From Candidatus Saccharimonadota bacterium (lineage in GTDB: Bacteria > Patescibacteriota > Saccharimonadia > Saccharimonadales > UBA4665): a DNA stretch of 64,000 nt. Every line of letters starts with the position of its first letter. Position 1 is the stretch's first letter. The notes beneath the pieces were generated by a model. The model did no database searches, was not told the DNA's origin, and saw nothing but the letters and a program-made list of their open reading frames with translations. Below, one piece after another: positions 3,469 through 16,669 of this stretch. Where the stretch lies: contig PLTT01000007.1 in NCBI GenBank assembly GCA_003164595.1, positions 124,001-188,000 of the forward strand, in the 5' to 3' direction. The translations under genes were made by a program, and so were the position numbers.

Positions 3469-4518
3469 ATGATCACAGAAATCACACTCAAACATTTTCG
3501 TTCCTACAAAAACAGTACCTTCAAATTCAGCCCGGGGGTAAATATAATCGTCGGCCCAAACGCTAGCGGTAAAACCAACCTACTAGAGGCAATACTAGTT
3601 GCCTGTGAAGGAAAATCTTACCGGGCCGGCGACAAGGAATTAATAGCCTTCAAACAAGAGATCGCTAGAATTGAACTTCTTACAGACAGCAACGACATAC
3701 GGATCGTCTATCTGGAAAGTTCTGTCAATAAGAAGAAATCATACAAAATAAACAATGAATTATTCACTCGGCTTAGTCTGCAAAAAAGACTACCGATAGT
3801 ACTATTTGAACCAAATAATCTAAGTATGCTTAGTGGACCAGCTGATCTTCGAAGACAATTCCTCGATGACTTACTGGAGAAGACCAAATCTGGCTATGGA
3901 AGCTTAAGACGATCTTATCGGCGTACCTTAGCGCAGAGAAACAACCTACTTAAACGAGATAATCTTCCAAAAGATCAGTTATTTGCATGGGATATTCGGT
4001 TATGTGATTTGGGTGAGCAGGTTGCTAAATACAGAAATAGCCTAGCCCATGATATTAACGAACTAATCGAGGGTGTATACGAGAATCTGTCGGGAACTAA
4101 AGCAAAGATTGAGTTTAGTTATATACCCACAGTACCAATAGAGGGCTATGGGACTGCTCTGCTGCACAAACTAGAAGAACACGTAAAAGAAGACCGTGAA
4201 AGAGGATTTACGGCTTACGGGCCTCATAGAGAGGATATAGCCATATCAATAAACAGCCACCCCCTGCAGATGTCCGCTTCCCGTGGAGAAGTTCGATCAA
4301 TGGTATTAGCTTGCAAAATAATTGAAGCGATTATTACAGAGGAAACACTAGGCGTAACCCCGGTATTGCTATTAGATGATGTTTTTAGTGAACTGGACAG
4401 TAAAAGGCGCAAACAGCTAACGAAATTTTTGCAATCATATCAATCATTTATAACTACGACAGACGCTGATGTGCTGACGAAGAAAATCAATATTAACTCA
4501 AGAATAATTCTAATTTAG
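3469..4518 (+). CDS. recF: Recombination mediator RecF
   Basis: RecF is an SMC/ABC-like ATPase that loads RecA at single-strand gaps with RecO and RecR. The product is 349 residues, normal length. Visible features are the N-terminal ITLKHFRSYKN, Walker A GPNASGKTNLLEA, an ABC signature region near ASRGEVRSMVLACK, and Walker B LLLDDVFSELDSKRR. It follows dnaN by 52 bases. Its last bases overlap by 4 nt, tail to tail, the end of the T4SS operon on the other strand. No clear ribosome-binding site precedes the ATG. Confidence 0.96.
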   Translation: MITEITLKHFRSYKNSTFKFSPGVNIIVGPNASGKTNLLEAILVACEGKSYRAGDKELIAFKQEIARIELLTDSNDIRIVYLESSVNKKKSYKINNELFTRLSLQKRLPIVLFEPNNLSMLSGPADLRRQFLDDLLEKTKSGYGSLRRSYRRTLAQRNNLLKRDNLPKDQLFAWDIRLCDLGEQVAKYRNSLAHDINELIEGVYENLSGTKAKIEFSYIPTVPIEGYGTALLHKLEEHVKEDRERGFTAYGPHREDIAISINSHPLQMSASRGEVRSMVLACKIIEAIITEETLGVTPVLLLDDVFSELDSKRRKQLTKFLQSYQSFITTTDADVLTKKININSRIILI

Positions 4519-5126
4519 GGCAAAGCGTTAATGTACTCAATAGTCATTTTAGAAGGATCGTAGCCCATCGATCGAATCCATGCCAACGCATCTTGCTGGG
4601 CTTGTTGGCTCTGAGCGGTAATGTAAATTACTGGTATTGGCGAAGAACTACCGGACTTACTGCCATAGTTGATTTGATATTCGAAGTCTGGCCCAGTAAA
4701 TGGTAGCAGCTTAATTAACGGCACTGCCTGTACGGCTTCCTGAGAAGCGACCGTACTTTCATTACTCGATATTCCCTCAGCAATTTTTTCATCTGATGGA
4801 TGGTTGTAATACCAATTAGCAGTACTTGGAGAATTTGAAACCAAGACGACTCCAACTAACTTAGTTTGACCCTTGACCACATTTATTGTTGCTGTGTAGG
4901 AGGAAAATCCCGACATAGTCACGGTAATTTTATATTTACCGGGCTTTGTTTTAATAATACCCGCCCCACGACCCTGACCATTAATTAAAATCTTGCTTTT
5001 AGCTGGCGCTACAAGGAGATTAATCTTTGCCGTATAGGCACTTTCGTGAATACTGTAGAATATCATCACCACGAAAACTAACAATAAAACAACAAGCCAA
5101 GGTAATAGTTTCTTATTCCACAGCAT
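4515..5126 (-). CDS. PEGA-domain membrane-anchored protein at the end of the T4SS operon
   Basis: 203 residues. One hydrophobic segment at about residues 8-27 acts as signal anchor. It is followed by a roughly 65-residue beta-rich PEGA-like domain (ILINGQGRGAG, KPGKYKITVTMSGF, VVKGQTKLVGVVL) and a C-terminal extracellular region of unknown fold. PEGA domains are known on bacterial surface proteins, often with peptidoglycan-binding or S-layer-linked partners. Here the gene begins 1 base after the peptidoglycan enzyme stops, so it is probably co-translated with it and may anchor or regulate it outside the membrane. Function is inferred from context only. Confidence 0.75.
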   Translation of the reverse strand: MLWNKKLLPWLVVLLLVFVVMIFYSIHESAYTAKINLLVAPAKSKILINGQGRGAGIIKTKPGKYKITVTMSGFSSYTATINVVKGQTKLVGVVLVSNSPSTANWYYNHPSDEKIAEGISSNESTVASQEAVQAVPLIKLLPFTGPDFEYQINYGSKSGSSSPIPVIYITAQSQQAQQDALAWIRSMGYDPSKMTIEYINALP

Positions 5127-5127
5127 A

Positions 5128-7272
5128 TTATTGGATTAACCTTGCTATCAAATACGAGCCTCTATTCAGCGGGTCAGTTAACTGCGTGAATTCAAGAGTG
5201 CCTGATTGACTATCACTATAGGGTTGACTGTATGAAGCCTGTGCTTCGCTATAGCCCCCAGCCTGGGGCCCTACATAGATAAAAGTGTGACCACCTGCCC
5301 CCCCGCCACCCTGACCAACATTGATTGTGCCATCGGCGTTTTGGGTAGTGCCAGAATTAATGATTAAGATATCTCCGGGCTGTAATTGTGCTGTGGAAGT
5401 AGCCGGATAGATAACTTTATATAGATTCGGATGAGATATTACATACTCCGCCTGATTAACGGTGTATCCTTGGGGGTAATTAGGGTCAGCGCCACTAGCT
5501 CTCATAACCGTAGCCACGAACACGCCACAGTCTCCCCCTGTTCCATCAGTTGTCGTATATTCAAGGGGATTATATTGCTTCATTGCTGCAACATAAGCCG
5601 GAGTTGGGGATGAGGCTGAAGGTCTGGCGGTCGTTGGTGAAGAGAATGTTGTTGGCCACGCTAAACTAAGTGCTGTTTGAACAATACTTCCCCCGCCACA
5701 GCTTGTCTGAGGAGAAAGTGTAGAGAATAGTTTAGTAAACACACCTTGCAGTAGTTGTTCGCCGGCAACTTGACTAATACTTCCAGACGTAACCATTGCA
5801 ACCCCTACTCCCGTGCTAGCTGGTTGCCCGGTAGGTACGACCTGAGCTGCTTGATTGACAACCCAGTTATTAGACGGAGGTTCTTGTTTCCAGCCAGCTT
5901 TACTGTATATAGTTGCAGGCAATTTAGCGGAAAGAATTCCCCATGTGTCGGTTGATGATATGTTTGATAGAAGGTTTTGAGCATAACTAAGTTGTGAAGC
6001 CGGGATTAGGCTATTAATCATTGCGAAAAAACGGGCTTGGTCGTTGGCGGTGACCAGGCTCTGACCTAGAACATAAACTGGGTCAGAGGTGTCTAAGCTA
6101 AAATTGGTCATCCCGGCATCTGAAGCAACTTTATTAATGGCTGCTGCACCGACTTGTTTATAGGTAGCATTGGCCGCTGTATTATCGCTTTGCTCGATCA
6201 TAGCAGTAAGTTGAGTGTCTTCTGCCCCCGTTGGTGTTTGTGAGCCGTCCTGGTTGAGGTAAGCTACCAGAAGCATCGCTTTTGTTATCGATGCACCATA
6301 AACAGTCATATCACCATTATAGCTATTAATAATTTTTCCGGATGAATCAGAGACCGAAAGCCCAACCTGAATACCTGTTGCAGCTTGAGCGGCTGCTTCA
6401 GCGTCAGTAAAATCTATTAGAGACTGAGTTGTAGTAGGGGCAGAACTGCCAGCCGAGGTACAACTACAAGCAGCACTCGATGGCGTGCTGCCGGCACTAG
6501 GATTTGCCGCCGCATCAGAGCCACTCGTTGTTAAATCAACCAATTCATTTATCCAAGAATCTACATTATCAGTGTACTGAACTTGGTTTTGTACTGCACC
6601 CGGGGCTGTCGGTGATGGGCCATCATAGGCTTCCATTAGTGCCAACAAACTTTGGCTATCAATCTGAGAGGCGAACCGATTCCTAAGATACGTTGCCTGA
6701 TCGCCTCCCCCTACAGCGCCAATGTTTTGTTGGGCATTTGGGTCAATACTTGCCGCAACAGCAGATTCGGTAGGTGTTGCTGTCCATTGATACCACGTAT
6801 TAGCACCCTGAAAAGTTGGTTGCCCGACCGCAGCTTCTCTACCAAACGAATTACCTGCATTAACAACATTGTAATCAGTAGAACTAGACAAAACAGACTC
6901 TTCACGAGCTATCGAAACTATTAGAAACGGGCTGATATTCGAATTCTTACCATCAGCCACGATATTTGCCCCAAGACCGGCAAGCTCGCTAGTTTTACCC
7001 GTCTGCTGATCTTGTTGAGTGATCCAGGTATTAATAGCATTAGTCATAGAAGCAGGATTTAAGTTAGGAAAAGCTGCTCCACTAGGGGACCCACTACCTG
7101 CGGTAATCGCAGCCGCCTGACTACTGCCACATGCAGATGCCTGTGTTGAGTTATAATATTCTGTATCGTTATCGATTCTTTGCTGATCAGTGCTACTAAG
7201 AGCAAAAACCCCGCGCCCAGAAAGGAAAATAAAAAGTATAGCCAAAACTAGGATGAATGTTCTTCGTATCAT
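5128..7272 (-). CDS. Secreted three-domain peptidoglycan enzyme (glucosaminidase-like + serine beta-lactamase/DD-peptidase fold + NlpC/P60-like)
   Basis: 714 residues with a signal peptide (about 1-25). Residues 75-245 resemble lysozyme/glucosaminidase domains: SPFLIVSIAREES has the family's glutamate (E124 or E125). Residues 285-515 carry the class A beta-lactamase/DD-peptidase triad: S328-I-T-K331, S362-D-N364 and K458-A-G460 (usually K-[TS]-G). Residues 555-714 look like an NlpC/P60 or CHAP amidase with Cys582 (GGDCGVFV) and His662 (GHTFIYVG). Low-complexity Ser/Ala/Pro linkers separate the domains. The start overlaps the upstream 905-residue gene by 4 nt. By inference it opens or remodels host or own cell wall for the T4SS-like machine. 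The one odd residue is Ala in the KAG motif. Confidence 0.8.
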   Translation of the reverse strand: MIRRTFILVLAILFIFLSGRGVFALSSTDQQRIDNDTEYYNSTQASACGSSQAAAITAGSGSPSGAAFPNLNPASMTNAINTWITQQDQQTGKTSELAGLGANIVADGKNSNISPFLIVSIAREESVLSSSTDYNVVNAGNSFGREAAVGQPTFQGANTWYQWTATPTESAVAASIDPNAQQNIGAVGGGDQATYLRNRFASQIDSQSLLALMEAYDGPSPTAPGAVQNQVQYTDNVDSWINELVDLTTSGSDAAANPSAGSTPSSAACSCTSAGSSAPTTTQSLIDFTDAEAAAQAATGIQVGLSVSDSSGKIINSYNGDMTVYGASITKAMLLVAYLNQDGSQTPTGAEDTQLTAMIEQSDNTAANATYKQVGAAAINKVASDAGMTNFSLDTSDPVYVLGQSLVTANDQARFFAMINSLIPASQLSYAQNLLSNISSTDTWGILSAKLPATIYSKAGWKQEPPSNNWVVNQAAQVVPTGQPASTGVGVAMVTSGSISQVAGEQLLQGVFTKLFSTLSPQTSCGGGSIVQTALSLAWPTTFSSPTTARPSASSPTPAYVAAMKQYNPLEYTTTDGTGGDCGVFVATVMRASGADPNYPQGYTVNQAEYVISHPNLYKVIYPATSTAQLQPGDILIINSGTTQNADGTINVGQGGGGAGGHTFIYVGPQAGGYSEAQASYSQPYSDSQSGTLEFTQLTDPLNRGSYLIARLIQ

Positions 7273-9986
7273 TGGTTTGTGGTTAGGCTCATATAATCTT
7301 TCATAACATGTACATCAAGTATATATTGTCTGAAATGCCCGATATCATCACTAATTTGCGGCGTGACTACTGCATTACAGCCGCTGTGATATATACCTGA
7401 ACTATCCGTCCACCCATTATAATATTTACTGCCCGGAGGCGCATTCATTGCCGTGCAATAAATATCCAAAATAGTACTATCAAGTGCAGAGGCTTCGTCT
7501 GCCAAATCAGCCGGTTGGTTTGCAGTATAATCATAATCCCCAATGGAACCACAATTACTATCAATAACACCGCCATTGCCTGATAATGTATTCTCCTGTA
7601 AATCTGCGTAATTATCTAAATAACAATGCAACAAATCATTAGCTATTAAATTGCTACCGTCAATTTCGTCACCACTAGTATTAACGATGTCGGTATTAGG
7701 GTTCCCAAGGGCCGCAATGCGCTGGACAGAGATATTGTTAAAAGATACATTTGTAAATAAATACTGCTCGTTTTGTATAGGGTCATATTTATCTACTTCA
7801 CCGTCAGTGAATGCATACTGCGTTACACCATATACCACTCCGGGAGTAGCGGGAGTCGTCGAGGCAAAAACCCTAGGTTCAAACACGGTTGATAAGTTGT
7901 GAATCAGCGTCGCTGGTATGCTTGTCAAATAATTAGTTGCGCTATTTATCGTTGCGGCAATGCCAATTGGCATGTGCGTTATAAGTCGAGACGCCAAAGA
8001 ATCAGTATTACTGAGTGCCAGAGTCCGATCTACCAGTGACAGGTGAGACTCAGCTATGTTTTGTTGTTGCGTCGCTTCATTGGCAACTTGACCTGCCGTG
8101 CTGTTAGGAACCGGATTTGCTCCGATAGACCGCGCATAGTTGCCGGAAGCTAGATTAAGCCCAGCGTCGGAATTATTTAGCCACTGCACAGAATTTTCCA
8201 AGCCATCAAGTCCCAGCGGCGTAAAATACTTAAGAATATCTGGGATTATAACGTGCGAAAGAGTGTATTGGAATCCAATAATTGCACTGGTTTGAATCAG
8301 CTCAGTGGCGCCAAGGGATAAGCCACCAACTAGAAGTCCCATCCCATTAAGTAATGTTCCGGCTATAGATCCAACCGGGCTATTTTCAACATCACAAGCT
8401 ATTGGTGCTACACCAGTGTCCTTTAGCCCGCTATTTACATCACTAACTATTGCCGAGCCAGCACTCGCAGTTGGCAGAGATGAGTTATCTATTGGTACGC
8501 CGCCCGAACCACCACTGGCACTTTGGTATGCGGCTGATGAGCTAAATGGTAGAGTATCTTGTGAGGGCGTAACCACATGAGTTACTGGGTTTGTAGTCGG
8601 CGTAGCCGATGAATTGCCGTTAAGTAGTCCCATGACTTTACTAACAACACCTCCAGTTAGGCCGCCTGATTTTAGCTCATCGGCCAGACTTATTAATAAT
8701 GTTCCATGTCTAATTAGTAATGTCTCAATCTTTGGAACCCTAGATTTTGAAGCGTTAGTCGATAGTTTATCTACGCTACAAACATCTTGAACAGCAGTGT
8801 TTGCCAGTAGAGGTGTACCAAGATTTGCCGTTTCCGATGAAATATCACTCTCTACTTGAGATGTGGTCATTCCGGCTTGTTCGTCCTTATTAGCCTCGGT
8901 TAGTATCTGTTCAGTTTCACTCGTAGCTGGTTGTGCGGCAGTAACATCTGATTTTAGTGTATCTGAAGAATTACTTGCCACTTGTTCGCTGTCGGAAGTA
9001 TCGGCGGCCTGAACAAGTTCCGTCTCAGTCGCTCCATCTTCGATTTCTCCTACAACAGACTTATTATTATCAAGAGGATCGGGCGTGGTACTTGGGTTAA
9101 AGTTTGAGCCAGACTCTTCGGTGATAGTTGGGACAAATGCTTCAACTTGGCCGACATTCCACTCCTGTAAACCTGACTCTACTGAGTCAGCGGCATCGCT
9201 GTTAGTTGCTATTTTGTCGGTGATATCTTCTCCTTCGCTATTCTTCAAAGCCAGGGTACCGTTACTAGAAGTTGTCTCTGTAATACCGGCATTCGCCAAA
9301 TCCGCTACGACGGCCGGTTCAGTGATTGGAAAGTCTTCCATGTCAGTGGATAATGTTTCATCTGGCGCATTAGCGGCTGGAACGGTGTTCTCGTCAGCGT
9401 CCTCCGCCGGGTTATCCGGATCAGTACCTTTTCCGCAGGTTTTGGCTTTCATGCAGACGATCCTTTGCATAATTTTTGATGCCGCTTTTTGTTCAAAATG
9501 TTTCTCAACTTTAAATTCATATTTTACTAGAGTTTTTTCGATAGTTATCAGTTCGTGACTAACTAAAAAGCCAGCTCCAAAAATTGCTAAAAAAACAAAT
9601 ATACCTATAATCCCGCCTCCAGCTGCAGTTCCTTTCTTATGTGCCACGAAAAAGCCCGCCAAGCGTTTTCCGACTGCCCTGGCCATAGACACCTCTCCAC
9701 CGGCCCCCGCCTTTATTCCCTGGGTTAAGGCTGATCTTGCCGAAGACGATTTGTTGTAAAAACCATCTCCAGACTCAGCTTTGCTCAGGGAATCGGCAGA
9801 GGTTTGCTGATCTAAGCCTGGGATGTCATTTGACTGAGACCCTTCACTTAATGAGTCATCTTTTCCGACAGCACTTTCCTGGCTTTTCAGCCCTGACCCC
9901 GATAATGGATTACTATAACCACGGTTGTCATAAACAGTGGACTTATCATCTGGCTTGTATAGAGGAGTTTGTTTTGTCTCGGCCAT
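7269..9986 (-). CDS. Large single-pass surface protein of the T4SS locus, unknown function
   Basis: 905 residues, no recognised family. Residues 1-125 are polar, Ser/Gly-rich and probably cytoplasmic. A strong membrane span lies at about 126-146 (IIGIFVFLAIFGAGFLV). A basic, cysteine-containing segment follows (MQRIVCMKAKTCGKG), then an acidic Thr/Ser/Glu-rich low-complexity stretch at about 185-400, then a more ordered C-terminal 450 residues with scattered cysteines. It sits between virB4 and the cell-wall enzyme and shares a 4-nt overlap with the latter, so it is probably a structural or surface part of the same apparatus. TAAAAT lies 7 nt before the ATG, so an internal leaderless promoter is possible. 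Confidence 0.7.
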   Translation of the reverse strand: MAETKQTPLYKPDDKSTVYDNRGYSNPLSGSGLKSQESAVGKDDSLSEGSQSNDIPGLDQQTSADSLSKAESGDGFYNKSSSARSALTQGIKAGAGGEVSMARAVGKRLAGFFVAHKKGTAAGGGIIGIFVFLAIFGAGFLVSHELITIEKTLVKYEFKVEKHFEQKAASKIMQRIVCMKAKTCGKGTDPDNPAEDADENTVPAANAPDETLSTDMEDFPITEPAVVADLANAGITETTSSNGTLALKNSEGEDITDKIATNSDAADSVESGLQEWNVGQVEAFVPTITEESGSNFNPSTTPDPLDNNKSVVGEIEDGATETELVQAADTSDSEQVASNSSDTLKSDVTAAQPATSETEQILTEANKDEQAGMTTSQVESDISSETANLGTPLLANTAVQDVCSVDKLSTNASKSRVPKIETLLIRHGTLLISLADELKSGGLTGGVVSKVMGLLNGNSSATPTTNPVTHVVTPSQDTLPFSSSAAYQSASGGSGGVPIDNSSLPTASAGSAIVSDVNSGLKDTGVAPIACDVENSPVGSIAGTLLNGMGLLVGGLSLGATELIQTSAIIGFQYTLSHVIIPDILKYFTPLGLDGLENSVQWLNNSDAGLNLASGNYARSIGANPVPNSTAGQVANEATQQQNIAESHLSLVDRTLALSNTDSLASRLITHMPIGIAATINSATNYLTSIPATLIHNLSTVFEPRVFASTTPATPGVVYGVTQYAFTDGEVDKYDPIQNEQYLFTNVSFNNISVQRIAALGNPNTDIVNTSGDEIDGSNLIANDLLHCYLDNYADLQENTLSGNGGVIDSNCGSIGDYDYTANQPADLADEASALDSTILDIYCTAMNAPPGSKYYNGWTDSSGIYHSGCNAVVTPQISDDIGHFRQYILDVHVMKDYMSLTTNQ

Positions 9987-9999
9987 ATGCGCTATTTTA

Positions 10000-11898
10000 C
10001 TAAGTTACGTTGGTCTGATTACTTGGGTTAGGGGCAGGCGAATTGATTGGACTACCGTTAGCTTGAATTGGTTTTGGATTGGTCGTGATCAAGCTCGTCT
10101 CTGTTGGGCTTGCGACGACCTGTATGTGTACATGGTTTGAGCCAGCGAAGAATAGACCCTGCCCGACAGGAAACTCCATTAGGCGTTTTTTCTCTTCGGC
10201 AGTTAGCTTGAATACCTGCGCAAGGCCATCAACAGCCGTCGGTGATTGTTTCAGTAAAAATTGCATAGATGCGTTAGCGACAATTGCTCTGCCCATTCGT
10301 GACCCAATAAAATCTTCTACATCCTGGCTGATCGTGGTAATTCCTAGGTTGTATTTTCTAGCCCTTTTTGCAAGCGAGAAGAGGAAATTAGCACTGTCTT
10401 CGTATTCCATTAATTGCCATGCTTCATCAACGACTAATATTCTGCGTTTTTGATCAGCTTTAGTTTTGTTCCAAATATAGTTTAGGACAATATACATTGC
10501 TACGGGACGTAGCTCATCCTCCAGGTCGCGGATATTAAAAACCACTGTGGTATTGTTGATGTCGATATTGGATTGTTGGCTGAATATCCCAGCAAATGTT
10601 CCGCTTGTATATTTACGGAGACGCTGGGCTAATTGAGGCCCGCTTCCTCCCATATGCAGGAGAGTCTCATATAAATCGGCCATATCTGGAACTGGGGAGG
10701 CGTGAGTCAAGGGATCGTTAGTTATGCCCGCCTTTGCATAGGTTTCAATTAAAGCCGTATCAAGATCAGACTCTTCGGTTGGACTAAGTGCCGGCATTAA
10801 AGTTGAAGACCCGCCAATAAGTTGTGCCTGTGCCCCACCCATCATGAGCCTTAGGAGGCCATGTAAAACTATCAGGTTGGATCGGAGGGCATCCTCGCCC
10901 TCATCAACGTCTATGACTTTCGGCAGATCAAAGGGATTTATGCGAGTATTTGAATTTAAACTTAACCTAATATAGCTCCCGCCGACAGCTTCACATAGTC
11001 TTTCGTATTCATTCTCCGGATCAATTATAAAAATTTCAGTTCCTAGCATTAAACTGCGAAGTGCTTCAAGTTTAACCAAAAAGCTTTTTCCAGCACCCGA
11101 TTTTGCGAAAACAACTGAGTTACCATTCTCTAAGCTAAACCTATCGAAAATTACTAGCCCTGAATTATGCATATTAATGCCATACAGAATGCCTTTATCA
11201 TCAGTTAGGTCAGAGCTTGTAAATGGAAAGCTTGTACTCAGGGCGCCGGTACTTATATTTCGCCGAATTTGTAGTTGATCTACGAATTGGGGCAGAGTAC
11301 TGTTTAGGCCTTGCTCTTGTTGCGAACTAGCTGGTTTAGAATAAATGAGCTCTTGCCCAAGTAACGATTCGATTTTGTGTGACACGAACTCGAGCTCTTC
11401 CATAGATGACGCATAGACTGTGAAGTACATGCCGAACCTAAAGAAACGCTCCTCGCCGACCTGTAGCTTGTCTCTCATCTCCTCGGCATCCTGAACGGCC
11501 GCCTCTTTGCCTGGATCGCGGACCTTGCCTTTTTCTTGCTCAAGCTGGATACCGGCCTCTAGTTGTGTAACTTTTTTACGTAGATTGTCCAGAACTACCT
11601 GAGAGTCAATTGGATAAATGTAAAACGATAGGTCAACTACCTCATCAATATTGATAAGTGGGCTTAACCAGCCGGTGTATATTTGTCTAGGATAGCCATA
11701 AACATAGTACGTCCGGGCTATACGCGTGCCTATCCGAAAGAAAGAGTAATTGAACTCTATTGAACTTGGTGCAATAAAATCTCTGAGCGCCGTTATGCCT
11801 TTACTAAACGCTTCTGATACTTCTTGCTGTTCGGCAATTTGCTGAGCCTGCGCAGACGGTACTTCGGTTGAGGACTGTTTCTTTTTTCCAAAGATCAT
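10000..11898 (-). CDS. virB4: VirB4-family T4SS ATPase
   Basis: VirB4/TraC ATPases power assembly and substrate passage of type IV secretion systems at the inner face of the membrane. 632 residues: an N-terminal domain (about 35-245) with a charged helical insertion, then the RecA-like motor with Walker A AKSGAGKSF (265-273), IIDPENEYERL (about 291-301) and Walker B RRILVVDEAW (485-494), followed by a Gln/Thr-rich motif. ATG overlaps the stop of the TraC-like gene by 4 nt, with AGAGG upstream. A disordered, Pro/Asn-rich tail ends the protein. The closest alternative is a conjugative-element TraC ATPase, which is the same superfamily. Confidence 0.93.
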   Translation of the reverse strand: MIFGKKKQSSTEVPSAQAQQIAEQQEVSEAFSKGITALRDFIAPSSIEFNYSFFRIGTRIARTYYVYGYPRQIYTGWLSPLINIDEVVDLSFYIYPIDSQVVLDNLRKKVTQLEAGIQLEQEKGKVRDPGKEAAVQDAEEMRDKLQVGEERFFRFGMYFTVYASSMEELEFVSHKIESLLGQELIYSKPASSQQEQGLNSTLPQFVDQLQIRRNISTGALSTSFPFTSSDLTDDKGILYGINMHNSGLVIFDRFSLENGNSVVFAKSGAGKSFLVKLEALRSLMLGTEIFIIDPENEYERLCEAVGGSYIRLSLNSNTRINPFDLPKVIDVDEGEDALRSNLIVLHGLLRLMMGGAQAQLIGGSSTLMPALSPTEESDLDTALIETYAKAGITNDPLTHASPVPDMADLYETLLHMGGSGPQLAQRLRKYTSGTFAGIFSQQSNIDINNTTVVFNIRDLEDELRPVAMYIVLNYIWNKTKADQKRRILVVDEAWQLMEYEDSANFLFSLAKRARKYNLGITTISQDVEDFIGSRMGRAIVANASMQFLLKQSPTAVDGLAQVFKLTAEEKKRLMEFPVGQGLFFAGSNHVHIQVVASPTETSLITTNPKPIQANGSPINSPAPNPSNQTNVT

Positions 11899-12722
11899 GA
11901 AATACCTCTCTGATTACTGGCTACTCCGTTGGGTGCAGGACTTTTTGTTATTACATCGGCTGAGACATTATGAAAATCTGGTAGGTGCTGTCTGGTGGCG
12001 GTATCGGGGTTATAACTGTCATAGTAAAGCTCGATCAACTCCTGGGTATCTAGCGGGAGACCTTGTACCCCACACTGCAGTAGTCCTGACATTGCCGCTT
12101 GAACCCTGTTCCTAAGTTCAGTTTTTGCTTTTTGTAAGGCCGTATCGTCAATGACAACTCTTTCGGTTTTTTTACTAAATAATTTACCAACACCTGTGAA
12201 AAAACTTTTACTCTGAGAGAGCGCACCTTCGAGCGTGTCCGTTAAGAAAAAAGGAATAACTACGTACATATTTTTATCCATTATGTTGGCTTGTTCGCCT
12301 ATGACTTCGATGTAATTTATATAGTCTTCCATTAACATCGATAACAACATGTTCTCTTCACTTTGTCTGAGTTTATCCAAGCCTTCGATATAGGGTTTCA
12401 AATCAATTCTTTGTGACCTAACAAATATTTGAATGGGAAAATACAGTGAATTCAAAAACCCTTGGTAGCTATATTCTATCGCCTCTTGTTCTTCTTGGCT
12501 CATAAGATCAAAATTAATCGATTTGACCATAACAACAGATCTAAAACTACCGTCGTTCATAATAACTACACCATCTCGAATTTCTGCAATTTCGAGACTG
12601 TTCTGGGTGGAGTTGGTGTTGGGCAGTGATTTTTTTGGCGGGACGCTTGGAGCCTGCGAAACGAAATTATGAGTTCCAGCTACTTCATTTACCAATTGAT
12701 TGTTTTGAGCCTTGGGATCCAT
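11895..12722 (-). CDS. TraC-like T4SS accessory protein
   Basis: 275 residues. After a disordered N-terminus (1-45) comes a domain starting EIRDGVVIMNDGSFRSVVMV and containing FPIQIFVRSQRIDLKPY, which resembles the N-terminal, non-ATPase domain of TraC/VirB4 proteins. No P-loop is present. The gene directly precedes and overlaps virB4 by 4 nt, so the two products are likely made together and may form one functional unit with the VirB4 motor. A TATAAG box lies 6 nt before ATG 12722, so an internal leaderless promoter is possible. The role is inferred from similarity in pattern and from position. Confidence 0.75.
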   Translation of the reverse strand: MDPKAQNNQLVNEVAGTHNFVSQAPSVPPKKSLPNTNSTQNSLEIAEIRDGVVIMNDGSFRSVVMVKSINFDLMSQEEQEAIEYSYQGFLNSLYFPIQIFVRSQRIDLKPYIEGLDKLRQSEENMLLSMLMEDYINYIEVIGEQANIMDKNMYVVIPFFLTDTLEGALSQSKSFFTGVGKLFSKKTERVVIDDTALQKAKTELRNRVQAAMSGLLQCGVQGLPLDTQELIELYYDSYNPDTATRQHLPDFHNVSADVITKSPAPNGVASNQRGIS

Positions 12723-12768: not shown

Positions 12769-13785
12769 TTAGCGTAAATTTATAACAACTTCGTTGCCTG
12801 AAGTTGGGTTTTGCTTTAGGTTAACTCTCCTAGCGAGCGTAGCGATGTTTAAATCGTTATTACTCGCCAAGTTAAGTATATCAGCATAAGGGGAATACGC
12901 GATAGTTGGCGCAGCTACTTTCTGAGGTACTGGGTTGGACGGCGTAACCTGGGTGACCGCTTGCGTAGTACTAGCATTGGTAGTTCTTACTTGGGATATG
13001 GCTGGGGCAACATTGGAGCGGAAGCCGTTTGCCGGATTCAAAAACCAATTAGTAGTTGAGTTATCTTTGGTCTCTGGCGTGACAAACGTGTGCTCGGGTT
13101 TGATATTTTCGATTGGAGCTGGCGATTGGCTCTGGGCGTTTAGGCTCTCTATGAGGTTTTTCTTGCGTATATCTGCTGAACTGGCGATAATTTTGTCAAA
13201 ATTGTGGGCAATTAACGAGCTGTTATCGTCTAGTATATCCTCGGCATCACTAGTATCTGTTGGGGTAATTACTATCGGCATTTTTTCTATGTCTATTAAT
13301 CGGTCAGCGGTTCCTGTATTAGACCGAAAATTTGGAATTATGGTAGCTGGGTTGTCTAGATTCTTGATCGCCCAACCCCTTGTATCAATGGTCTTTGCAA
13401 GCGTCTTAAGGCGACTTTGAATTTCAACTTGCGACAAACCCTTAGTGTAATCAGTGACTACTTGTTTTGGGGCTGTGATTTCAACAACTTCCTTAGTGCC
13501 ACTTTGATCCCATTTTCTTTGCCTAGGTTTTAATATAAAACGGATTTTTGCCAAAGCCCAGACTTCAGTTGGTTGGTTAAGCTTCCATGGGAAGGCGAAG
13601 AAACCCGACATAAGGGCTATTGGAATAAAGATGACGGCAAGAAAACCGGCACCCTTTATCATGACAATATATGTTAAGTAAAGACATAGGGCCATAACAC
13701 CTGCATAAATAAACTGCCTAAGTGTCAGCGGGCCTATAAGCTTGTCTTCGGCTTCAACGTCTTGGATTACTTTATATGTTGCCAT
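12769..13785 (-). CDS. PrgI-family T4SS membrane protein with long cytoplasmic tail
   Basis: 338 residues. The first 110 match the PrgI pattern (VirB3-like membrane subunit of Gram-positive T4SSs): MATYKVIQDVEAEDKLIGPL, two adjacent membrane spans at about 24-44 and 47-67, then FPWKLNQPTEVWALAKIRFI. The remaining 220 residues are polar, Thr/Asn/Pro-rich and look disordered apart from a charged helix near 118-145. PrgI/VirB3 proteins sit beside VirB4 and VirB6 in the inner membrane, which is the order here. The long tail is unusual compared with a minimal PrgI of about 110-120 residues. Confidence 0.85.
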   Translation of the reverse strand: MATYKVIQDVEAEDKLIGPLTLRQFIYAGVMALCLYLTYIVMIKGAGFLAVIFIPIALMSGFFAFPWKLNQPTEVWALAKIRFILKPRQRKWDQSGTKEVVEITAPKQVVTDYTKGLSQVEIQSRLKTLAKTIDTRGWAIKNLDNPATIIPNFRSNTGTADRLIDIEKMPIVITPTDTSDAEDILDDNSSLIAHNFDKIIASSADIRKKNLIESLNAQSQSPAPIENIKPEHTFVTPETKDNSTTNWFLNPANGFRSNVAPAISQVRTTNASTTQAVTQVTPSNPVPQKVAAPTIAYSPYADILNLASNNDLNIATLARRVNLKQNPTSGNEVVINLR

Positions 13786-13795
13786 TGTTTAAACC

Positions 13796-16669
13796 TTAAG
13801 TAACGTCAGGCCCCGTGGTCATTACGGGTTCAATATGATCCATATCGGGACGTGAAATAAGTTGATTATTTGTTCTTTCCGGTATAGAGGTAAGTTTCTT
13901 TTCCATCGTATCAGGGTTAGCGACACCGATATTAAACCTTCTGGTTCCAACTGCACTCTCGATGATAGCCTGTGAAGCCGGCGAAGCTCCACCAGCCACA
14001 ATCTGATCTTCTCCGCCCTCCCCCTTAATTGTTTCGGTGTAACCCGGAGTTCGCATTCTTTGGGAGGCACCGTCAAGGACTTCATAGGTCATAGCTAAGT
14101 TGCGACGATCTACTGGCGTATCCGTGCCATCGATTATTTTTTGCTCCAATTGTTTTTGTTTCGTGTTCATCGTCATCCAATCTGGAGCTGAAACAGAACT
14201 TAGTTTATAAGACTCGCCGCCAGTATGCATTTGCTTGAGGCCGCCAAAGTATGCGCTATCACCGCCTGGACTATTGTCTGCGGCATGGGTAGTCGTAACG
14301 CTTCCGTCCTCATTAAGTTTCGGAATCTCTTGGCGCAGAAACACATTCCTACCTTTATAGGGGATAGTTGCCCCAAGGTAATTGCCTGCTATCTGACTCT
14401 GATCCCATTTATTAGCTTCAGCATTTCTATTGAATGCAAATTGAAAAGCTTCAAGGTCGCCGTCCGTTTGGGATTTAAGTACGGCATAGTTAAGTGATTG
14501 AGTGATGTCATGCTGGGAGCCTCCGTAGAGACTTTTGCCCTTGGAATACATCTCTCTATTGATTTTCTTTCCCTTCGAGTTGTAGTATTCGCTGTGACCG
14601 CTACTATTATAACTCTTATCCAGTCTTTGTTGGCCGGCCTTAACCTCATAACCACCGCCCGCATAGAGTAAATCATCGTTCCCGTAATTGGCAAGAACTT
14701 CACGCCGTTTAGCGGCCGCTTCATTGTATCCAGCTATTCGAGCATCATAATTTCCAAATAGATCAGCCACTCTCGTTACGGCCCGCTGTCTTCTGTCTTT
14801 GGCAGTATTACCAAGAGCTTTTCGGCCAGGCTCTACAAATTTCCCCTGGTATTGAGTTGCCCGTTCCAGAATTTGTCTTCTCGATCTATTACGCAGACTG
14901 TTTGGATCGTTTGGATTGCCTTTAATTGCTTCAGTCAACTTCTTCCCGGTACCATTAACAGCTCCGTAGACGCCGCCGAGAATTCCTCCAGCAATCTTGA
15001 AGGCAAATGGGATCATGAATAGTGGAACAAATAAAGCAATCACGGCAAGTATCTGAGTAATTGGATCACTACCACCAGTTGCGCTTATTGTTATTGCCAG
15101 TGCAGTTGATAACGCAAAGAACGCTTCTATTATCGGGAAAATCAATAAGGTTTTAAATAATAGGCTCCACCATTTTTTAAAATATTGCTCAGTATTTGGT
15201 AAGCAATACAGCGCAAAAGCGATCGGAGCAGAAAGCACTAATAGGATGATCAGAGCTTGCCTGAGCAGGATAGTCAATATTACCCCAATAATGGCAACAA
15301 ACGCCGGTAGAACTATAAATAACAACAAGAATGGGAGTACAGAAGCGCCTAGCACGCCACCAACGGCCCAAATTGAGCCCGCTACACCCACCCCACCTAG
15401 CAATCCTGACAGATCACTGAACTTTATAGTATCTGCTCCAGCGGCAGCAAAAGGCTGGTTTATGAGATAGGTTATTCCGCTCCCTATGACGTTACTTACG
15501 TCGATCAATGCTGCAACGATATAAATAGATAAGTTAATCAAAATAGCTGCTATTAGGATTCTAGGTAACATCTTTTTTAGGGTGTAAGCATCAACAACGC
15601 CACCACCCATTATTTCTCCAAACACCAAGAATAGCAGTGCGATGACTAAAATAATATTGCCGTATAACCTAAAGGCTGACCAAATTGCATAGGAATGTGC
15701 CGGGTCACAACTCGAACCGTTTGGGTTAGTCTGACAAGCCGCAGTGGGTGAACTAGTAACAATTGGCGTAACCTGTAATTCGTGCTTTATGATGTGCGTA
15801 TTAATGGCTGATATACCATCAACCATACCGTTTATAAGAGGACAGAAAATCCAACTCAGAACAAATCCAGATTCGTCACAACTTGGCGCGGATTGGCCGG
15901 TGGGTGCGGCTATTAATAGATCAGCTGGAGCTTTGTATCCTGCGGGTAGCGGTAGCACCAGACCAGTATTTCCTAGAACCGTCACACAAGTACCACCATC
16001 TACTAGACCAAGGGTTAGCGAACCAGCTGTGCTGGGATTATTAACTGAGCATGATTGAACGGTCCATGTCTTCTGTGCTGCTGAGCTAGTATTACATGCA
16101 GGGCCACTAGTTATGTTGGTACCGGATGGACAACCGACAAAGTTGTAGCTGTTAAGGGCTACGTTTGGTGCGCTATTCTCATCTGATGCGTCAAAATTAG
16201 CGCTGTATGGTACTACCCCGCTCGCCGAAATAGTCAATTTTCCGTTTTGGTCACCGGGCGTTATATAATCCGACCCGCAGGGAGCTAGAGTAGTGGCAGT
16301 ATTGTTTCCGCAGTCATAAGTACCTAGATGATTACCGCTACCAACATCAATAATTGCCAAATTAATCGCGCTAGGGATCTGGTCGACCTGATTTCCAGAA
16401 CTATCAAGAATAAAGTAATTATTTCCGACTACTTGAATAGTGTCACCAGAGAAAGCATTCGGCCCTGGAGATGTATTTCCACCCAGAGTGGATATCTGTA
16501 CGTCTACTTCTACGATTGCGGTATCGTTTACATCTACGCCGGCGCTAGTGACATATATTTTGGGTGTAGTCGCAGCAGAAACATGGCCTACGGATAAACC
16601 AGCCATTACCGAAATTAGCAAAACAACGCCGCTAGCACCAAAAAATAATTTTGTTTTTAGATGTTTCAT
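13796..16669 (-). CDS. VirB6/TrbL-like polytopic T4SS channel protein
   Basis: 957 residues and first gene of the minus-strand operon. A signal peptide (about 1-32) is followed by a 280-residue extracellular, beta-rich domain with paired cysteines. A block of several membrane spans lies at about 335-600 (for example IILVIALLFLVFGEI, VLPFLLLFIVLPAFVAIIGV). A hydrophilic, basic 350-residue C-terminal tail is probably cytoplasmic. VirB6/TrbL proteins form the inner-membrane core of the channel. AAAGGAG precedes ATG 16669 very closely. The large extracellular N-terminal domain is not typical of classical VirB6 and may contact the pilins encoded divergently. Confidence 0.8.
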   Translation of the reverse strand: MKHLKTKLFFGASGVVLLISVMAGLSVGHVSAATTPKIYVTSAGVDVNDTAIVEVDVQISTLGGNTSPGPNAFSGDTIQVVGNNYFILDSSGNQVDQIPSAINLAIIDVGSGNHLGTYDCGNNTATTLAPCGSDYITPGDQNGKLTISASGVVPYSANFDASDENSAPNVALNSYNFVGCPSGTNITSGPACNTSSAAQKTWTVQSCSVNNPSTAGSLTLGLVDGGTCVTVLGNTGLVLPLPAGYKAPADLLIAAPTGQSAPSCDESGFVLSWIFCPLINGMVDGISAINTHIIKHELQVTPIVTSSPTAACQTNPNGSSCDPAHSYAIWSAFRLYGNIILVIALLFLVFGEIMGGGVVDAYTLKKMLPRILIAAILINLSIYIVAALIDVSNVIGSGITYLINQPFAAAGADTIKFSDLSGLLGGVGVAGSIWAVGGVLGASVLPFLLLFIVLPAFVAIIGVILTILLRQALIILLVLSAPIAFALYCLPNTEQYFKKWWSLLFKTLLIFPIIEAFFALSTALAITISATGGSDPITQILAVIALFVPLFMIPFAFKIAGGILGGVYGAVNGTGKKLTEAIKGNPNDPNSLRNRSRRQILERATQYQGKFVEPGRKALGNTAKDRRQRAVTRVADLFGNYDARIAGYNEAAAKRREVLANYGNDDLLYAGGGYEVKAGQQRLDKSYNSSGHSEYYNSKGKKINREMYSKGKSLYGGSQHDITQSLNYAVLKSQTDGDLEAFQFAFNRNAEANKWDQSQIAGNYLGATIPYKGRNVFLRQEIPKLNEDGSVTTTHAADNSPGGDSAYFGGLKQMHTGGESYKLSSVSAPDWMTMNTKQKQLEQKIIDGTDTPVDRRNLAMTYEVLDGASQRMRTPGYTETIKGEGGEDQIVAGGASPASQAIIESAVGTRRFNIGVANPDTMEKKLTSIPERTNNQLISRPDMDHIEPVMTTGPDVT

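Follow-up and report, generated by a model that had tools for sequence, protein, structure and literature searches.

Why would a T4SS operon of a Saccharibacterium encode three different peptidoglycan-active folds in a single exported chain? We analysed a gene of this kind in a 64,000-nucleotide stretch of DNA (the window) from a genome of 868 kb in 18 contigs (~95% complete). The gene (5128..7272, minus strand, 714 aa) is the sole ORF of its interval, and its ATG overlaps the stop codon of the upstream gene. Along the minus strand, a VirB6/TrbL-like protein (13796..16669; PF04610, E=0.0033, short of the curated cut-off) is followed by a PrgI-family (VirB3-like) protein (12769..13785; PF12666, E=5.8e-11), a 275-aa conserved T4SS-cluster protein identified by synteny (11895..12722), a VirB4/TraG-type ATPase (10000..11898; PF19044, E=2.8e-27), a 905-aa protein with no Pfam match, whose place after VirB4 and before the wall enzyme is conserved (7269..9986), the wall enzyme itself and a 203-aa PEGA-domain protein (4515..5126; PF08308). 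VirB4 was matched at E<=1e-150 in 85/99 genomes. Many loci have a related PEGA-domain gene beside the wall enzyme, and others have different single-pass proteins there. Beyond it lie dnaA-dnaN-recF, on the opposite strand to the T4SS operon.

The chain consists of a signal peptide, a GH73-like glucosaminidase (module 1), a class A beta-lactamase fold resembling PBP-A (module 2) and an NlpC/P60 peptidase (module 3). The signal peptide (residues 1-25, 7198..7272, VFA/LSS), without a lipobox, was recognised by inspection from its hydrophobic core and AxA-like site. Beta-lactamase2 (PF13354) was the single significant Pfam match of the target itself. SLT and Phage_lysozyme2, both found in many proteins at the same operon position (the slot, described below), gave no Pfam match in the target. 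Pfam, PDB profiles, homologue matches, Foldseek and synteny together bear out the first-pass annotation of this DNA, which had proposed three peptidoglycan-active domains in one exported T4SS-linked chain. With VirB4, PrgI and VirB6-like neighbours, a signal peptide and wall-active modules, the protein has the location and composition of a VirB1/PrgK-like hydrolase. Module 2 was assigned from sequence profiles. Because segments were misaligned when all modules were combined in one alignment, modules 1 and 3 were each modelled on their own.

Module 1 (~residues 60-250, 6523..7095) has no Pfam match of its own. The homologues L040, L047, L087, L251 and L252 matched the glucosaminidase family PF01832 over the same region, mostly under the curated cut-off. 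The putative catalytic residue E125 was found to be invariant among 12 homologues, and E125-S126 and an N-x-F-G-R motif were kept in all twelve. The AlphaFold model was of moderate quality (pLDDT 73.5), and in Foldseek searches 11 of its 13 best matches were GH73 autolysins or endolysins, with weak E-values, none significant singly. We call module 1 GH73-like because homologues match PF01832 over this region and the best Foldseek matches are mostly GH73.

Module 3 (~residues 528-712, 5137..5691) was modelled with confidence (pLDDT 90.7). C582 and H662 are invariant in 25 homologues, and a PDB profile search returned MepS/Spr (E=5.5e-5). The top Foldseek matches were mostly papain-like, with NlpC/P60 leading and none below E=0.05; they included NlpC/P60 enzymes of the MAP1204, RipA and RipD type and also the T6SS amidase Tae4. 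The profile and the model place a Cys at a helix start and a His on a strand of a papain-like fold, the arrangement that defines NlpC/P60 (C40) peptidases. PF00877 gave no match in the target at E<=1 and none in the family search of its own genome; homologues match it weakly. Module 3 thus has the fold and the Cys/His pair in common with the MepS/Spr and RipA-type endopeptidases but is divergent, with no Pfam NLPC_P60 match of the target and with other flanking modules. Structure prediction by domain, as the first-pass annotation had advised, points for modules 1 and 3 to the families that it had named, with weak Foldseek E-values. An NlpC-like domain related to module 3 was also seen in an open frame reported as 24,285 aa (L264, G482:C2:392307-392729), possibly a giant protein; it comes from a different family of this class.

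Module 2 (~residues 286-515, 5728..6417) matched PF13354 with E=2.7e-13. The motifs singled out initially, SITK (S328-K331), SDN (S362-N364) and KAG (K458-G460), as well as C582 and H662 of module 3, are all present and conserved in the homologue alignments: S328, K331, S362 and G460 are invariant over 20 homologues and K458 is almost invariant. The SxxK and SDN motifs of class A are present, and in the third motif, K[TS]G, Ala replaces Thr/Ser. The omega-loop general base Glu166 (with Asn170) is not conserved, being Asp in the slot group and the loop being shortened in others. When a profile of the 20 homologues was searched against the PDB, PBP-A (Tll2115, 2j7v) was matched with E=3.9e-44 and the best beta-lactamase entry with 2.5e-30. 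Without the general-base Glu, module 2 is therefore probably not a beta-lactamase. Its fold, the missing Glu166 and the best PDB match suggest that it is probably of the PBP-A-like DD-peptidase type, with the activity predicted from sequence. PBP-A of Thermosynechococcus elongatus, likewise of class A fold and lacking the general-base Glu, acts as both a DD-carboxypeptidase and a DD-endopeptidase and prefers D-iGln-amidated muropeptides (PMC11189452). It is known as a separate cyanobacterial enzyme, whereas the target has the fold as one module flanked by two wall enzymes.

The PF13354 match and the presence of SxxK, SDN and KxG would also fit a beta-lactamase or penicillin sensor serving the symbiont as protection or warning, its fusion to wall enzymes being incidental. 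We regard this as quite unlikely, given the closer structural relationship to a DD-peptidase and the loss of the class A omega-loop Glu; the target also has no transmembrane signalling part, as a sensor would require. The earlier suggestion that the protein might sense wall fragments likewise finds no support, its nearest characterised relative being a DD-carboxy/endopeptidase (PMC11189452).

The beta-lactamase (BL) fold is common in the order (274/393 genomes), and most of the matches examined further were separate proteins; the target's genome holds this one copy only. It recurs in the slot proteins of G044, G080 and G159 (GDSL-BL-lysozyme-NlpC) and in L231 (BL...M23), as well as in a 1240-aa gene preceding the slot of G134. 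A penicillin-recognising fold at this place is thus unusual, as first claimed, but not unique. The G134 gene (L249:3466-7185, plus strand) follows VirB4, in the position of the 905-aa protein, and ends C-terminally with the beta-lactamase fold and an M23 domain; wall enzymes can therefore also be joined to that T4SS protein.

We searched other Patescibacteria for the same three-domain order. GH73-PBP-A-NlpC was found only in the target among 99 relatives, 393 genomes of the order and 380 of the phylum, which are overlapping samples covered by sequence search, from which divergent copies may escape. Relatives match single modules, at differing positions in differing proteins. The nearest relatives found for the three modules fall in different genera: that of the GH73 module in G012, where it is placed after an amidase, that of the PBP-A-like module in G044, where it is the first module, and that of the NlpC module in G007. 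In named genomes, the short patterns of the full-length target retrieved no relatives. A phage origin of modules 1 and 3 was also considered; pattern-based scans of viral contigs gave no relatives of either.

Synteny was read at ~87 loci, many of them from metagenome assemblies. In most intact Saccharibacteria loci an exported protein of 300-1200 aa is found between the ~800-1400-aa post-VirB4 gene and PEGA/recF, and in most of them this slot is occupied by a multidomain wall enzyme. The 74 slot proteins carry wall-active families almost exclusively: phage-tail lysozyme (34), GDSL (13), NlpC/P60 (13), M23 (10), C39 (10), SLT (10), CHAP (9), GH73 (6), Amidase_3 (5), GH3 (4), VanY (4), Amidase_2 (3) and Beta-lactamase2 (3). 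Hand coding distinguished 47 domain strings among 71 slot proteins, an upper estimate because unassigned segments were pooled as 'X' and related NlpC-like types were split. The same domain string was shared by VirB4 nearest neighbours in 7/68 cases. Even congeners differ, with lysozyme-CHAP, BL-X-NlpC and lysozyme-NlpC in g9 (L079, L035 and L067) and lysozyme-NlpC and lysozyme-M23 in g26 (L074 and L078). The largest slot protein, L044, has the string lysozyme-GDSL-GH3-amidase-NlpC, and L119 holds an atypical protein in the slot. The slot gene is not universal at this place, because four genomes do not have it: at L085 (G027), L088 (G021), L095 (G049) and L106 (G057) VirB4 abuts recF, and the 905-aa-type gene and the PEGA gene are likewise missing there. 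From sequence comparison, and unnoticed in the first-pass annotation, the target is one among a series of shuffled architectures that occupy a conserved slot, as if the tool had been rebuilt repeatedly, possibly to fit different host cell walls.

Two features are held in common by these shuffled proteins. Directly after the signal peptide they share an N-terminal motif, which in the target covers residues 26-48 (7129..7197; consensus ALSxxQlqaLdngipYYDp...C) and ends with C48. Profiles built from half sets recovered 24-31 of 37 held-out slot proteins and 0/816 other ORFs. Profiles of the mature part, without the signal peptide and at a looser threshold, recovered 20-30/37 and 0/681, respectively. 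The motif was also found in 13/18 slot proteins of an independent set. A search of the target's own genome returned only the target, using a weak 30-aa query.

The second feature is the placing of cysteines in the S/G-rich linkers, with one before the first module, CC, CxC or CxxxC pairs in internal linkers and usually one before the last module. In the target, C48 is followed by the pair C269-x-C271 in linker 1 (6418..6522) and by a single C525 in linker 2 (5692..5727). Among internal gaps between Pfam-defined modules, exactly two paired Cys were found in 15/21 and none in 6/21, and never an odd number. Last gaps mostly hold one Cys or another odd number. Cys pairs in last gaps occur almost entirely in proteins whose true last module has no Pfam match; L047 departs from the last-gap pattern. 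Slot proteins contain 29 CC/CxC pairs, where 7.7 were expected and none of 2000 shuffles gave more than 17; 604 control ORFs contain two. An independent set showed Cys pairs in four multi-module proteins (L173, L208, L210 and L231). With one partial exception, standalone proteins with the beta-lactamase fold have no Cys close to the ends of the domain. L089 (C412) and L096 (C438) have no final module and end on the Cys itself, as if cut at a cassette boundary. VKOR is encoded in 23/31 genomes and a DsbA-like protein in 30/31, the target's included in both cases. Because of this Cys pattern, the modules look like disulfide-closed cassettes. The simplest reading would be that a disulfide closes every module other than the last, a bracket sometimes enclosing two domains. 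This Cys pattern appears to be a structural regularity that has not been described for multi-module wall enzymes.

Our preferred reading, held with moderate confidence, is that the target is a murein hydrolase of the Saccharibacteria T4SS, similar in kind to PrgK, TraG and VirB1 but built of exchangeable cassettes, and that it opens the wall toward the host. The protein would be exported by Sec and oxidised, each module but the last being closed by a disulfide of its flanking Cys; the sequence pattern suggests that C48-C269 would close the glucosaminidase and C271-C525 the PBP-A-like module. It would be held near the T4SS, perhaps via the conserved N-terminal motif. Module 1 would then cleave glycan, module 2 would remove D-Ala or open D-Ala-mDAP cross-links, and module 3 would cleave stem peptides. 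This agrees with the early proposal that the protein could cut glycan and peptide, for which the three folds with their conserved catalytic residues give it the capacity in principle. Jointly, the three modules would open the wall locally and let the T4SS through to the actinobacterial host. The wall acted on is probably that of the host, and differences among host walls would be the reason for repeated rebuilding of the slot. We infer that every module is active and that module turnover is adaptive. In S. epibionticum, epibiotic growth requires the T4SS cluster (PMC10633639); peptidase and lysozyme homologues encoded immediately downstream of its virB4 have also been cited as essential (PMC12102498). 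Beyond this, we tentatively suggest a dedicated system in which C-module-C cassettes are swapped behind a constant T4SS-targeting N-terminus, the combination setting which host walls can be penetrated and hence the host range; we consider this possible, at less than even likelihood.

A VirB1-type enzyme might instead act on the symbiont's own sacculus only, clearing it for T4SS assembly, with module diversity being neutral drift or tracking the chemistry of that sacculus. VirB1-like proteins are established in such a role (PMC12102498), and the Sec signal and operon position are compatible with it. Yet architectures differ within one genus (g9, g26) and between VirB4 nearest neighbours, and own-wall chemistry would need to change equally fast; GDSL, GH3, VanY and PlyCA-like modules would also seem to exceed the needs of local assembly. 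We therefore regard this restriction to the own wall as rather unlikely, if a serious alternative. Slightly less probable in our view is that the glycosidase alone cuts and most modules are catalytically weak parts that bind the wall or regulate the protein itself. PrgK offers the precedent, its LytM and CHAP modules being inactive and inhibitory (PMC11323569), and since two of the three PrgK modules are inactive regulators there, some target modules may be inactive on walls too (PMC11323569). Against this, the key catalytic residues of all three target modules are conserved among homologues, unlike the degenerate PrgK LytM. Such conservation alone does not decide activity, because the PrgK CHAP is inactive despite the presence of its Cys and His.

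Peptidoglycan-cutting effectors of other secretion systems suggest a further possibility, a lytic effector injected into host cells by the T4SS. The T4SS operon and the presence of Tae4 among the Foldseek matches would fit, but the Sec signal leads us to rank this reading low. No adjoining immunity gene was recognised, and host killing would be ill-suited to an obligate epibiont. Injection thus appears highly improbable, and opening of the host wall by an exported, T4SS-associated hydrolase remains our preferred reading.

Multidomain T4SS wall enzymes are already known. A close parallel is PrgK of pCF10, a VirB1-like protein of the DELTA family (LytM-muramidase-CHAP). It too is a wall enzyme encoded in the T4SS operon of a Gram-positive-type system, and its single chain carries three extracellular modules. 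Similarity to phage tail lysozymes, here the commonest slot module, has been reported for its muramidase (PMC11323569). Unlike the target, PrgK is anchored by a transmembrane segment and has a cytoplasmic domain; it has neither a GH73 nor a PBP-A-like module, and its LytM site is degenerate. C766 is reported as its sole extracellular Cys (PMC11323569), so that it has no Cys-bracketed cassettes, in contrast to the slot proteins. The initial view that T4SSs usually carry one or two wall hydrolases needs qualifying in the light of the three-domain PrgK (LytM-SLT/muramidase-CHAP; PMC11323569) and of slot relatives with 2 to 5 domains. The lytic transglycosylase-CHAP proteins VirB1, TraG (pIP501) and CD419 share with the target their operon position and presumed job, but the target has GH73 and NlpC/P60 in place of SLT and CHAP, plus the PBP-A-like module. 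Module shuffling behind a conserved end is common to the slot proteins and to phage endolysins and polymorphic toxins; the slot proteins differ in their chromosomal T4SS slot and in having no recognised immunity gene. In the literature searched (mostly open-access, without preprints), we saw neither the shuffled slot nor the N-terminal motif common to its proteins nor the Cys pattern described.

A recent survey remarked that, outside Paceibacteria, VirB1 homologues are mostly unlinked to virB4, and that their job might fall to other glycosidases (PMC12102498). In the Saccharibacteria sampled here, by comparison, the position is usually filled, and by many enzyme families. These results bear on how Saccharibacteria breach the thick walls of the actinobacteria that host them and on what underlies their narrow host range. 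A conserved position with changing sets of wall enzymes offers a concrete candidate for both and a testable code, in which domain composition may be compared with host wall chemistry.
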